Shown piece after piece: positions 7,792 to 11,755 of a stretch of DNA of 11,755 nt. This stretch comes from Candidatus Methanodesulfokora sp. GTDB taxonomy: Archaea; Korarchaeota; Korarchaeia; Korarchaeales; Korarchaeaceae. The position numbers were made by a program, and so were the translations under genes. The DNA lies in contig JAGDWR010000011.1 of the NCBI GenBank assembly GCA_023269865.1, positions 1-11,755 on the forward strand, in the 5' to 3' direction. How positions within the stretch are numbered: position 1 is the first letter of the stretch; every line of letters begins with the position of its first letter. The notes under the pieces are model-generated. The model saw only the letters and a program-made list of their open reading frames with translations. It did no database searches and was not told the DNA's origin.

Positions 7792-8792
7792 TAGCCCACC
7801 CTGATGATGGCTGTCATCCTCTCCAGTTTCCCGCTTCTCACTTTTATCATCGCATCCTGAAGCTCCTCAAAATCAAATACCTCTTTATCTATGCTGAAAT
7901 CAACTTTTCTAGCTAGATTCAACATTTTCATTATCGTGCTCCTCCTTATGTTGTACACCGTCCTTATGTCCTTTCCCCAGAGGTCCTCCCCATAGTTCTC
8001 AACAATCATTGGACTTTGAGATGCTATTGGAGCCAGGACAAGAATACCTCCACGCTTTAAATTCCTGAGAGCTCTTGTGAACATCTCTCCTGCCGGGGGG
8101 AAATATATTATGCTGTCCATTTTATCAGGGAAATCTTTTTCAGCTATGTTTCCAATCCATCTTGCACTTAGTTCAGCAGCTATCTCCTGATGATATCTTG
8201 ATCTAGTGCTGACGTAGACATCAGCCCCTATGTGGTTAGCTATTTTCATCAGGTAGAATGCAGTTGGACCGAATCCTATAAGGCCTATTTTATCCCCTGG
8301 CTTAACTTCAGCTAGCTCATAGCAGAGATGAGCTATAACTCCAGGGCACATGAGGGGAGCACAGTCCTCATCTTTAAGTGGGATGTCAAGAGGTGCGACA
8401 TACTCCTCCTCTGCAATTACATATTCAGCAAACCCTCCATCAACATCCCATCCGGTCCTGACTATATCCGGGCAGTAGTTCTCCCTTCCTGTTAGGCAGT
8501 ATTTGCAGCTGTTGCAGGAGCTGTAGAGCCATGTCAACCCGACTCTATCCCCCTCCTTTATCCTCCTTCCTCTCGATCTATCCACTGTTCCGACGATCTG
8601 ATGGCCCAGTATCACAGGCTTTTTGTGCAGAGGATGATCGCCCTCTGCTATGTGCAGATCAGTCCTGCATATACCGCAGAACCTCACTTTTATCCTTATC
8701 TGACCTTCCCTTGGCTCTGGATCAGGAATGTCAACTAATTTCAGGGGCCTATCCTCTATTTTGGACTGCCTTTCAAGGATCCAAGCCCTCAT
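7791..8792 (-). CDS. Zinc-dependent MDR alcohol dehydrogenase (adh_fam_2-like)
   Basis: An NAD(P)-dependent medium-chain dehydrogenase/reductase. Numbering from the upstream ATG of the MMRAW pair, catalytic zinc ligands are C43 (in CGICRTDLH), H65 (GHQIVG) and C150 (LMCPG). The structural zinc loop holds C94, C97, C100 and C108. The nucleotide fold carries GLIGFGPTA (about 172-180), and the STRSRYH stretch after its second strand favours NADP(H) because no acidic residue follows the strand. CPGVIAH and the YFPPAGEM segment resemble the adh_fam_2 subfamily rather than threonine or sorbitol dehydrogenases. The usual GHE is GHQ here. Two adjacent ATGs exist (8795 and 8792). GAGGTGAT lies seven nt before the second, so 8792 is chosen; it overlaps the nnr stop as TGATG. 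Substrate unknown. Confidence 0.92.
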   Translation of the reverse strand: MRAWILERQSKIEDRPLKLVDIPDPEPREGQIRIKVRFCGICRTDLHIAEGDHPLHKKPVILGHQIVGTVDRSRGRRIKEGDRVGLTWLYSSCNSCKYCLTGRENYCPDIVRTGWDVDGGFAEYVIAEEEYVAPLDIPLKDEDCAPLMCPGVIAHLCYELAEVKPGDKIGLIGFGPTAFYLMKIANHIGADVYVSTRSRYHQEIAAELSARWIGNIAEKDFPDKMDSIIYFPPAGEMFTRALRNLKRGGILVLAPIASQSPMIVENYGEDLWGKDIRTVYNIRRSTIMKMLNLARKVDFSIDKEVFDFEELQDAMIKVRSGKLERMTAIIRVG

Positions 8793-10363
8793 CATATCAC
8801 CTCAGGCATATATCTCCTCATTATGTTTAAATCAGTCCTGAGCATTCTCATCGCATCTGGAAGGCAGTTCATTATGTCCACAGATGTCATACCATCTTCG
8901 CCCATCTTTTCAGCTGCTATATCTCCAGCAAGCCCATGTATGAAAACTCCAGTTCTAACAGCATCCCCTATGTTCAGGCCGAGACAATATAGAGCAGCTA
9001 TCGTCCCTGTAAGTACATCTCCTGAGCCTGCTGTTGCCATTCCTGAGTTTCCTGACATGTTTATGTAAACCCTGCCATCAGGATATCCTATCAGGCTATG
9101 CGCTCCTTTCAGCACTATGTATGCATTTAGATCCTCGCAGGTCTTTCTGAGCAGCTCTATGTTGTTCTGCACCTCATCAACCTTTCTTCCAGTCATTCTG
9201 GCCATCTCCCCGGGATGAGGAGTCAGGACAGTTGGATTTCTCCTCCCCCTAATTGAATCCAGATCCTTGGATATTGCAGTGATGCCATCTCCATCTATTA
9301 TCACCGGTTTGTCCAGTTTTCTGGCAAGATTCCTTATAAGCTCCTGAGTTTCATCATTTAAAGACGTCCCCGGCCCTACTATCATGATATCCTGCTCCCT
9401 CGAAAGCTCCAATATCTTGCCCTCATTCTCCTTTGATATCGATCCCTCATCAGTTTCTTTTAAAGGTATGTAAACAACTTCGCTTGCCCTTGATGCTATG
9501 AATGGTATCACTGATTCAGGGGCAGCAAGCCTTGAGTATCCACCCCCTGCCTTGAGAAAGGAGAGAGAGGAGAGCATAGGAGCCCCATAGTAATTTCTAG
9601 AGCCTGCAACAGTTAAAAGCTTTCCAAAAGTCCCCTTATGTCCCCATTTGACCCTGGGAGGAGGTTGGACGGGCTCGTTTATCTCAATTTTTATATCCCT
9701 GTAAAGCTCTGGGGGATAGGATATGTGCGATACATAGAGCTTCCCGCAGTAATCATACCCTGGATATAACATGTTTCCCAATTTTGGAAGGCCGAATGTA
9801 ACTGTGTAGTTCGATCTTACTGCAACTCCATACACTTTTCCATCATCTCCCCCTATGCCGGAGGGTATGTCGACGCTGAAGATAACCTTCCCGCACCTGT
9901 TTACCTCCTCTATCACAGCCCTATGAACCCCTTTAACCTCCCTTGAGAGCCCAGTCCCAAATATCCCAACTACAACTCCATCGCTCTGCTGAAGCGATGA
10001 CCTCAGCAGCCCTAAATCGCCCTCTTCAGATATAACATGAACCTCTATTCCCATATTTTTAACTATATTGTAGTTCCTCCTCGCCGGATCCCTGTACTGC
10101 TCAGGATTGCCCAATATGAAAACTCTTACTGCAGCGTTGCTTGAGTGGAGCTTTCTTGCAACCACAAGGGCATCTCCTCCATTGTTCCCCTGGCCAGCTA
10201 TCACGGTAAACTTTTTTCCATGCACTCCGAGCTCCTTCAATATGACGAAGTAGAGGGCATTCCCTGCATTCTCCATGAGGATATCATATCCAATTCCATA
10301 CTTCTCAGCTGCTTCAGAATCTATCCTCCTTATCTCATCAACTGTGCACACCTTCATCGGCAT
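8792..10363 (-). CDS. nnr: Bifunctional NAD(P)H-hydrate epimerase / ADP-dependent NAD(P)H-hydrate dehydratase
   Basis: Repairs hydrated (damaged) NADH and NADPH. The N-terminal epimerase domain (about 1-215) has MENAG (30-34), the GQGNNGGD phosphate-binding loop (57-64) and DIPSGIGGDDG (165-175), including the cation-binding aspartate. The C-terminal ribokinase-like dehydratase domain (about 235-510) has LTVAGSRNYYGAP (250-262), MIVGPGT (327-333), IDGDG (356-360), LTPHPGEM (380-387) and the catalytic NSGMATAGSGDVLTG (439-453, D449). At 523 residues it is a normal-length fusion. The start is ATG at 10363 with a TATATCC-type box centred about 25 bp upstream, implying a leaderless transcript; a second ATG is two codons in. 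Its stop overlaps the ADH start, so the pair forms an operon linking nicotinamide cofactor repair to an NAD(P)-dependent enzyme. Confidence 0.96.
   Translation of the reverse strand: MPMKVCTVDEIRRIDSEAAEKYGIGYDILMENAGNALYFVILKELGVHGKKFTVIAGQGNNGGDALVVARKLHSSNAAVRVFILGNPEQYRDPARRNYNIVKNMGIEVHVISEEGDLGLLRSSLQQSDGVVVGIFGTGLSREVKGVHRAVIEEVNRCGKVIFSVDIPSGIGGDDGKVYGVAVRSNYTVTFGLPKLGNMLYPGYDYCGKLYVSHISYPPELYRDIKIEINEPVQPPPRVKWGHKGTFGKLLTVAGSRNYYGAPMLSSLSFLKAGGGYSRLAAPESVIPFIASRASEVVYIPLKETDEGSISKENEGKILELSREQDIMIVGPGTSLNDETQELIRNLARKLDKPVIIDGDGITAISKDLDSIRGRRNPTVLTPHPGEMARMTGRKVDEVQNNIELLRKTCEDLNAYIVLKGAHSLIGYPDGRVYINMSGNSGMATAGSGDVLTGTIAALYCLGLNIGDAVRTGVFIHGLAGDIAAEKMGEDGMTSVDIMNCLPDAMRMLRTDLNIMRRYMPEVI
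8796..8803 (-). promoter_or_regulatory. Strong Shine-Dalgarno of the ADH gene (GAGGTGAT)
   Basis: Eight-base match to the complement of the archaeal 16S 3' end, located inside the last codons of nnr. Spacing from GAGG is 4 nt to ATG 8795 and 7 nt to ATG 8792, favouring the latter and indicating coupled translation. Confidence 0.7.
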
Positions 10364-10392: not shown

Positions 10393-10569
10393 ACAGCTTA
10401 TCTATTTAATTGTTGAAGAATAGTGTACGGAGAGGCTCTCGATCCGGCTGCATTAAAAATGAAATATGAGTTCTTCATGTCAAACAGCAGTATATAGGAG
10501 AAATCTTTAAAAGTACTACATTATAAAAATGAGTGCCAGAAAACCCAGAGCTTCTGGGATGAATGAAAA
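10393..10569. other. AT-rich intergenic stretch with several TATA-like boxes, no gene seen
   Basis: No ORF longer than about 21 codons starts here. Plus-strand TATA-like strings occur near 10402, 10491, 10506 and 10521. A small hairpin (CGGAGAG ... CTC-GA-TCCG, 10428-10446) and a perfect CCCAGA-GCT-TCTGGG stem (10544-10558) are present. The latter could be the left subterminal hairpin of a deleted IS605-like element. Confidence 0.4.
10544..10558 (+). repeat. Perfect stem-loop CCCAGA-GCT-TCTGGG
   Basis: 6+3+6 inverted repeat located 12 bp before the TATA box of the structured RNA. It may be the left-end hairpin of a non-autonomous IS200/IS605-like element whose right-end hairpin is at 10787-10806. 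It is short, so an unrelated stem is possible. Confidence 0.35.
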
Positions 10570-10582
10570 GTTTAAATATAAG
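10570..10582 (+). promoter_or_regulatory. Strong TATA promoter of the structured RNA
   Basis: GTTTAAATATAAG is a near-consensus archaeal TATA box preceded by the purine-rich GAATGAAAA (BRE-like). The expected start, about 25 bp from the box centre, falls near 10601, exactly where the GC-rich structured segment begins. Confidence 0.6.
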
Positions 10583-10600
10583 AATATGGAGTAGGCCTTA

Positions 10601-10806
10601 AATCGGATGTTCCGAGAGGGTGGCCACATATAGCCCATGCGTTAATGAGATGGGGAAGCTGTGACGCCCCTAACCAGCAGATGTGACTGGAGGCGCAAAT
10701 CCCCAGGTGAACGCTGGAACCTAGTGCAAGCTTCCAGCAAAACGGGCTGGAGGGCGACCTATGAAGCCTGAAGGAAAAGCTGGAAGCTCCCGAATTTAGT
10801 TGGGAG
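10601..10806 (+). ncRNA. Structured RNA resembling an IS605/TnpB omegaRNA without tnpB
   Basis: A GC-rich block in an AT-rich gap, lacking a plausible protein. Visible stems: TCGGA/TCCGA (10603-10607/10611-10615); TGGGGA/TCCCCA (10651-10656/10700-10705) enclosing CGCC/GGCG (10665-10668/10692-10695) and CCAG/CTGG (10674-10677/10687-10690); GCTGGAA/TTCCAGC (10713-10719/10732-10738); GGCT-AGG-GCGA-CCT-AGCC (about 10745-10768); and terminal CTCCCGA/TTGGGAG (10787-10793/10800-10806) with loop ATTTAG. The terminal hairpin with its TTTAG loop and the GAAGCTGTGA string resemble the 3' end of archaeal tnpB genes and their guide RNA. A short open frame ending in TGA at 10662-10664 could be the last codons of a lost tnpB. 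If so, the guide would be the bases after 10806, entering vapB. Alternatively it is a structured 5' leader of vapB. The fold is read by eye. Confidence 0.55.
10787..10806 (+). repeat. Right-end-type hairpin with TTTAG loop
   Basis: Seven-pair stem (one G-T wobble) CTCCCGA/TTGGGAG around ATTTAG. Stem-TTTAG-stem hairpins mark the right ends of many IS605/IS1341 elements and the 3' end of their omegaRNA scaffold. It lies 20 bp before the vapB ATG. Confidence 0.5.
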
Positions 10807-10816
10807 AGGACGTCAC

Positions 10817-10839
10817 TTGTGTTACGATGAGCGTCACAA
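10817..10839. promoter_or_regulatory. Imperfect palindrome across the vapB start codon
   Basis: TTGTG-tt-ACG, spacer ATGAG, CGT-CACAA. The position at a translation/transcription start fits autorepression by VapB. A direct repeat of CGTCAC (10811 and 10832, 21 bp apart) overlaps it. Confidence 0.35.
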
Positions 10840-11051
10840 TAACCGTTAAGGTGCCAAAGGAGCTCAAGGAGGAGATCAAGAGAATGGGAATTAACATCAA
10901 CGAAGTTGTGAGAAGGGCTCTGGAGGAAGAGCTGAAGAGAAAAAAGATGGAGGAGGCCATGATGGCTGCAAAGTGTGTTGGAGAGCTACTTTCCAAGCTA
11001 CCAGAGGAGGAAATTGTTGAATGGATTAGGAAAGCCAGAAGGGAGAGGTAA
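10827..11051 (+). CDS. vapB: Orphan VapB-type antitoxin
   Basis: A 74-residue charged protein starting MSVTITVKVPKELKEEIKR. This is the beta-strand then helix opening of archaeal VapB antitoxins (ribbon-helix-helix or AbrB-like DNA-binding N-terminus), followed by a helical, lysine/glutamate-rich toxin-binding tail (EEIVEWIRKARRER). VapB normally neutralises a PIN-domain VapC RNase and represses its own operon. No vapC follows: 35 bp downstream is the end of a convergent gene. The frame is open back to a TTG at 10800, but the family start matches ATG 10827. An imperfect inverted repeat, TTGTGttACG/CGTCACAA (10817-10839), covers the start codon and may be its operator. No good Shine-Dalgarno sequence is near. 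Transcription may come from the RNA promoter at 10570 or from a weak AATTTAG box inside the hairpin. Confidence 0.75.
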   Translation: MSVTITVKVPKELKEEIKRMGININEVVRRALEEELKRKKMEEAMMAAKCVGELLSKLPEEEIVEWIRKARRER

Positions 11052-11681: not shown

Positions 11682-11710
11682 ATTGAAAATTCGTTCTGTT
11701 TAATGAAAAA

Positions 11711-11718
11711 CTTTAAGG
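11711..11718 (+). promoter_or_regulatory. Candidate TATA box of the plus-strand gene at the window end
   Basis: CTTTAAGG lies about 29 bp before the ATG at 11744, a spacing compatible with leaderless or very short-leader transcription. Confidence 0.3.
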
Positions 11719-11743
11719 TTCAGCGTGAGCTGAAAGAGGAGCT

Positions 11744-11755
11744 ATGAGAGAAGCC
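11744..11755 (+). CDS. Possible start of a plus-strand gene (four codons visible)
   Basis: ATG at 11744 reads M-R-E-A before the window ends. It is preceded by a TATA-like CTTTAAGG and by GAGGAG at 11736-11741, only two nt away. Product cannot be inferred. Confidence 0.3.

Follow-up and report, generated by a model that had tools for sequence, protein, structure and literature searches.

TnpB systems are usually viewed as cis units consisting of one gene, one ωRNA, and one guide. Guide RNAs of transposon-derived proteins also occur where no active nuclease is encoded in cis, or at a distance from it, examples being the stand-alone ωRNA/HEARO copies of IscB systems and the guide RNAs of TldR; IscB is a nuclease of a different family, and TldR is a TnpB without nuclease activity. 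In the available parts of the ISDra2 descriptions, the ωRNA has a pseudoknot between the guide-adjacent bases and the stem-1 loop as well as a stem 4 capped by a UUUA tetraloop (PMC10097598), and the guide is 16 nt long (PMC8612924). Some PATEs were derived from IS605-type elements by core deletion, according to the accessible part of the 2011 account, which predates ωRNAs and describes fused termini and no retained guide RNA (PMC3119063). The literature, searched through titles and abstracts with most subscription journals outside its coverage and the ω sign unsearchable, contained no description of tnpB-less archaeal ωRNA elements. PATEs and ωRNAs are the nearest known systems, and their combination was not found in the literature searched.

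The window, i.e., the whole stretch of DNA analysed, comprises 11,755 nucleotides of a contig from a metagenome-assembled genome of the korarchaeal genus Methanodesulfokora (G000; 1.04 Mb, 72% complete). Its positions 10525–10816 probably represent a tnpB-deleted, non-autonomous derivative of an IS200/IS605 (IS1341-type) element, with an ωRNA that would use TnpB in trans. The features of the locus are as follows:

10521..10524, + strand, TTAT, target motif adjoining the left end of the element (read from the sequence; putative TAM)
10525..10816, + strand, whole solo ωRNA element, 292 bp (left end by comparison of copies, right end where identity with contig C72 stops)
10544..10558, + strand, left-end palindrome CCCAGA-GCT-TCTGGG (read from the sequence; the same palindrome occurs in other left ends)
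10571..10578, + strand, TATA-like box TTTAAATA (sequence match)
10604..10614, + strand, 5′ hairpin CGG-AUGUU-CCG (of the form NNN-ATGTT-N'N'N')
10632..10816, + strand, ωRNA scaffold core, long form (matched by covariance models R1 at 10632–10791 and R2 at 10632–10816)
10652..10670, + strand, stem 1, GGGG/CCCC, 10652–10655 with 10667–10670 (equivalent of covariation helix 2, placed by eye)
10661..10666, + strand, 5′ strand of the pseudoknot, GTGACG (6/6 pairs with 10811–10816)
10674..10717, + strand, stem 2, CCAGC/GCTGG, 10674–10678 with 10713–10717 (covariation helix 4, placed by eye)
within 10687..10706, + strand, stem 3 (covariation helix 5, placed by eye)
10720..10786, + strand, extra domain of the long form, motif GCAAAAC...GCGAC..ATGAAG (long-form alignments)
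10787..10806, + strand, stem 4/right-end hairpin CTCCCGA-(ATTTAG)-TTGGGAG (read from the sequence)
10811..10816, + strand, 3′ strand of the pseudoknot, CGTCAC, and element end (pairing scan and comparison with C72)
10817..10832, + strand, predicted guide TTGTGTTACGATGAGC, 16 nt (flank to the right of the element end; length as in ISDra2)
10827..11051, + strand, ribbon-helix-helix (RHH; CopG/CcdA-like) gene, 74 aa (Pfam RHH_1 and CcdA above the cut-off)

As in the available descriptions of the ISDra2 TnpB ωRNA/reRNA, there are a right-end hairpin with a UUUA-type loop, a pseudoknot with the stem-1 loop, stems 2–3, and a predicted guide taken from the flank (PMC10097598; PMC8612924). As for TnpB ωRNAs, relatives have homologous RNA at the tnpB 3′ end. 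Unlike ISDra2, the window element lacks tnpB in cis, has the tnpB promoter directly before the scaffold, and is of a long form with an extra domain between stems 2 and 4. It resembles IscB ωRNA/HEARO and TldR guides as a transposon-derived guide RNA without an active nuclease in cis. With the PATEs of Haloquadratum, in the accessible part of their description, it shares its shortness, the lack of a transposase, and near-terminal palindromes (PMC3119063); unlike PATEs as described there, the window family keeps a scaffold and a promoter, and the scaffold covaries.

The original prediction had noted a TATA box near 10570, about 200 nt of GC-rich nested stems, and a terminal stem-TTTAG-stem hairpin. 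All three were found: the TATA-like box and the hairpin lie at the positions listed, and the RNA 10598–10816 folded at −79.7 kcal/mol (z −2.98; 1 of 200 shuffles was as good).

The left ends of 25 distinct other insertion sites coincided from just after a T-rich TTAT-like motif (equivalent to approximately 10525), with T ten bases before GGTGCCC in 25 of 25 and T at the base before that in 21 of 25. The window copy was too diverged for the left-end pattern used on other copies, and its left end was therefore set by visual comparison with them. In the same genome, contig C72 was identical to the window over 10762–10816 and divergent from 10817 on, which sets the right end at 10816 (...GACGTCAC) and the start of the predicted guide at 10817. 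This identity suggests recent spread in the genome, although its 55 nt may be merely the assembler overlap length. The last 55 bases of the window (11701–11755) were identical to the first 55 of contig C12, which is probably the assembler overlap length as well.

BLASTN of 10540–10850 against the same assembly, a check proposed with the original prediction, yielded 11 segments on nine contigs, the window included; matches were present in 8 of 61 genomes (own included). The copies share ends but sit in unlike flanks, without a transposase gene and with near-terminal palindromes. The window element is one copy of a dispersed multi-copy element with clean ends and not a single odd gene. Three contigs of this genome, C54 (L004), C65 (L009), and C75 (L013), carried tnpB remnants with a different right end (GGGAACCCTCGCCC...GAGGAGGTCAG); the remnant on C54 adjoins a solo copy. 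Viral carriage was considered and rejected: 33 IMG/VR loci had one common 16-mer, and it was taken as a chance match because 0 of 33 matched R1 at E 0.01.

In G024 (a Thermoproteota MAG), G060 (an Odinarchaeia MAG), and G002 (Candidatus Methanodesulfokora washburnensis, of the same genus as the window's genome), matching RNA overlies the 3′ end of a long ORF that encodes a TnpB domain (PF07282). This position in the TnpB genes of relatives identifies the RNA as an ωRNA homologue, as had been proposed. The TnpB genes on contigs C135 and C73 of G002 are those on NZ_RCOS01000173.1 and NZ_RCOS01000073.1. R1, built from 19 short-form cores with the window excluded, was applied to 24 tnpB loci found separately with the TnpB alignment. 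It matched at the ORF 3′ end in 17 of them, 11 of which were outside the model, and gave no match at the other seven, five of which matched only part of TnpB. On the window, R1 aligned to 10632–10791 with 61.4 bits (E 1.6e-11), stopping at 10791 because it lacks the extra domain; the first part of the window scaffold core derives from the tnpB 3′ end. The similarity to tnpB 3′ ends was accompanied by no match to any Rfam family within 10525–10816 even at E 5, and no tRNA was found in the window; neither of the two outcomes set out in the original prediction as refuting it was therefore observed. Another structured RNA, a chance fold, or an artefact of a fragmented MAG is a strongly disfavoured reading: the assembly is fragmentary, with several copies at contig ends, but the same RNA was detected by R1 covariance search in 8 of 29 genomes of the phylum, one of them a single contig (G009), as well as at tnpB 3′ ends, and it has no Rfam counterpart.

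Four cognate TnpBs were aligned, three of them being 74–82% identical to the first, and all four matched solved Cas12f and TnpB chains by sequence. The RuvC D-E-D residues were intact in 4/4 (IDRG, MENL/MEDL, and RDLNA/RDLDA, which we take to be the RuvC motifs of TnpB). The nuclease-dead, TnpB-like partner considered in the original prediction is thus not borne out, and the family differs from TldR in this respect. A search of the own assembly with the cognate TnpB found no full cognate tnpB, which at 72% completeness does not amount to absence; its matches were stretches of 36 and 27 aa inside solo copies and, at 28% and 34% identity, other TnpBs. At the window copy, no tnpB was found in the 1,632 nt upstream or among the window ORFs, in agreement with the predicted loss of the gene. 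Homology and fold are what define the RNA family here, and the absence of tnpB in cis was accordingly treated as a variant feature and not as exclusion from the ωRNA class.

Solo copies were not peculiar to the window. Using tblastn with a single TnpB on the 188–1,800 nt upstream of each place, we classified 41 places: 29 solo (≤26 aa of TnpB), five with full tnpB, three with partial tnpB (75–111 aa), and four at contig ends; nine lower-scoring places in G027, G005, G009, and G026 (G027 is a Thermoproteota MAG) and fragments on C67 and C72 stand outside this count. All seven own-genome copies with at least 1,500 nt upstream were solo. In G002, R1 gave 17 further weak matches, 14 of which formed a second family with its own pseudoknot TTGACA/TGTCAA (contigs C87, C132, C114, C149, C66, C26, C59, C143, C134, C124, and C46; loci L177–L186, L189–L191, and L193). 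This family consisted of 11 solo copies, one with tnpB, and two at contig ends. Solo copies therefore exceed linked ones in both families (29 vs. five full and three partial; 11 vs. one). The remaining three weak matches were a third type, a 3′ fragment of the first family, and one decayed or unrelated sequence. The third type (L192, G002:C15) was solo and had the pseudoknot GTAACC/GGTTAC. The left end of at least three second-family copies resembled the first-family one, as though the families had exchanged these ends.

The origin of the solo form can be read from G060. Its intact copy L025 has the left-end palindrome, the TATA box, and the tnpB start. In its solo copies C71, C125, and C29, the sequence agrees with L025 through the left end, the TATA box, and the start of tnpB and then passes directly to the last tnpB codons. 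The solo promoter is therefore the tnpB promoter, and the "own promoter" of the original prediction is the one standing before tnpB in this intact relative. The proposed internal deletion would have removed nearly all of tnpB and fused the 3′ part, which makes the ωRNA, to the left end and its promoter and start region. The deletion junctions, compared by eye, differed among G000, G002, G005, G009, G010, G060, and G203; since they differ between genomes, the sequences indicate that tnpB was probably lost by internal deletion more than once. Five of seven own-genome copies had an early stop in the old tnpB frame. Of 33 solo copies, 27 had a loose TATA-like match ahead of the RNA, a figure without a chance control, and the NNN-ATGTT-N'N'N' hairpin was present in 21 of 33 solo leaders against 0.84 expected from shuffles. 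The loop AUGUU of this hairpin was constant (AUAUU or AUGUC in some rows) with a changing stem, and its position is near the expected transcript start. In tnpB-linked copies, the AUGUU-loop hairpin overlaps the tnpB start.

The structure tested for covariation was drawn up from these same sequences; in it, 90.7% of cells were paired and double changes occurred in 17 of 42 pairs, and 0 of 500 shuffles equalled it on each of five measures. Unguided RNAalifold recovered most stems, of stem 4 the outer part only. It paired columns 1–3 with 124–126 in place of the pseudoknot, which this program cannot draw. The pseudoknot was evaluated in 65 cores (solo, linked, and long form together with two further types), a partner for the last six bases being sought in the 5′ part of the core; the last six bases of another copy served as the swapped control. 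A perfect 6/6 partner was found in 41 of 65 cores vs. 37 of 975 swapped controls, which is not readable as a probability because the copies are related; a score of at least 5.5 was reached by 47 of 65 vs. 175 of 975. Relative to the common GUGAGC/GCUCAC, the window has GUGACG/CGUCAC, in which two pairs are swapped, and further forms were GUGAAC/GUUCAC, GUGGGC/GCCCAC, UUGACA/UGUCAA, GUAACC/GGUUAC, and CUGACA/UGUCAG. The 6/6 match of G000:C87 falls outside the stem-1 loop, and the pseudoknot of G010:C69 was invisible to the scan because its core starts at the pseudoknot strand.

These data bear on the possibility that the element is an inert, PATE-like relic of a tnpB-deleted IS605 element, with the ends kept as DNA sites for the transposase and any RNA an unused by-product. 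PATEs are tnpB-less IS605 derivatives in Haloquadratum, in the accessible part of that account (PMC3119063), and the own assembly yielded neither TnpA nor a complete cognate TnpB. Some copies also look decayed: four of the 65 cores (G027:C56, G009, G005:C8, and G035) scored only 4.5 of 6, and the window has lost part of helix 1. However, the internal scaffold beyond the ends (stem 1, pseudoknot, and stems 2–3) is kept with double changes in the solo rows, the promoter and 5′ hairpin recur among solo copies, and the long form has its own swapped pseudoknot. We consider the relic reading unlikely. In 13 solo rows, 480 of 525 pair cells held, with double changes in 13 of 42 pairs. Starting from the nearest linked row, pairing exceeded the random-substitution expectation (P<0.01) in 10 of 13 rows; the remaining three, which differ by one, three, and six substitutions, are uninformative. 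The pairing kept in solo copies supports selection on the solo RNA without proving it, because part of the divergence or compensatory change may predate the loss of tnpB.

One solo copy with a weakened pseudoknot occupied the same site in two species (G009:C1, 845602–845726, and G005:C8, 3699–3823) and is possibly an old, dying insertion. A joined-flank search, made for the G009 site only, found both flanks in G005 with the element; other matches were partial. No empty site was recognised there or in the one stretch read upstream of an RHH gene related to that of the window.

The extra domain between stems 2 and 4 was present in the window, in C16, in C56 and C69 of G010, and in G165, G233, and G171 (by motif match in G165 and G233, by eye in G171). 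The last three genomes share only the domain, Archaea, with that of the window, and tblastn found no TnpB upstream of their long forms. R2 was built from four sequences, including the window and one further sequence of its genome. It matched only 126–140 nt at 17 tnpB loci, which are therefore of the short form, and no tnpB-linked long form was found among the 24 tnpB loci. At 30 of the 53 TnpB loci listed for six genomes, the long-form motif was found in none, and three strong R2 matches covered 126–128 nt. Among the loci examined, the motif occurred in solo loci only; the long form thus adds a domain to the ωRNA for which a partner in cis is yet to be seen. A YGAYNNAYGAAGCC-like motif (L105, L106, L108, L112, L113, and L016) was observed both in the inserted domain of the long form and in solo 5′ leaders of G026 and G027. 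A kink-turn reading of the long-form motif was dropped because it was inconsistent between copies (by eye).

Tentatively, solo ωRNAs may even constitute a guide-RNA lineage that amplifies without tnpB, outnumbers the nuclease genes of its family, and has its own pseudoknots and an added domain; its dispersed trans guides would be programmed by the insertion site, with few TnpB genes serving them.

The tnpB-deleted, trans-acting element that we favour is carried, as far as the sequences go, by the homology to tnpB-linked ωRNA, the absence of tnpB, the common ends in unlike flanks, the conserved fold, and the covarying pseudoknot; we infer from these the use of TnpB in trans by the solo ωRNA. 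Transcription would start from the TATA box at 10571. TnpB supplied in trans would trim and bind the solo ωRNA, and the approximately 16 nt after 10816 would serve as the guide. Cleavage of the empty TTAT+flank site would then keep the insertion from being lost, in the way proposed for TnpB in cis. Such a solo element would need only TnpB made elsewhere, i.e., a guide-RNA element would parasitise TnpB. Nuclease-less guide-RNA elements prevail in two families and have retained their structure by compensatory changes. The window element, with its well-preserved RNA, its promoter, and its many sister copies, suggests that a guide RNA may spread parasitically on an enzyme made elsewhere. If the elements do act in trans, TnpB would be a common resource that miniature elements exploit, and every insertion would supply another guide; one could then test a route from transposon ωRNAs to guide loci standing apart, as those of CRISPR do. 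Present mobility is doubtful, because Y1 TnpA (Y1_Tnp) was found neither in G000 nor in G002; among the other genomes, it was not found in G009, G024, and G026 and was present in G005, G010, G027, and G060.

The guide had been predicted to begin right after 10806 and to run into the start of the downstream gene. As now placed, the guide would cover the start codon of the RHH gene but begin at 10817, so that the predicted start was 10 nt off. Domestication was also part of the original prediction; in the form considered here, the RNA, together with a dead, TldR-like TnpB or alone as a leader, would control the RHH gene or a distant promoter. Apart from the overlap of the predicted guide with the RHH start codon, the sole TATA box seen between this gene and the element is the element's own. 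Positive evidence for domestication was not found, and the multi-copy occurrence and clean ends point the other way, as do the intact D-E-D residues of the cognate TnpBs (no full one having been found in the own assembly) and the flank, which differs per copy; the RHH neighbourhood is peculiar to the window copy among the copies read. A search with TTAT+guide of this single copy in three genomes of the genus found no second match within 3 mismatches; only its own junction was matched, with 2 mismatches. For the one copy tested, this argues against a TldR-like role. We regard domestication as very improbable.

Some observations concern the neighbourhood. The ωRNA transcript would run into the RHH gene, beside which no toxin gene was seen directly on the same strand. 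An NnrD-like protein is encoded at 8792–10363 of the window. Four related RHH copies are present in G002, and related genes occur in other genomes of the family.
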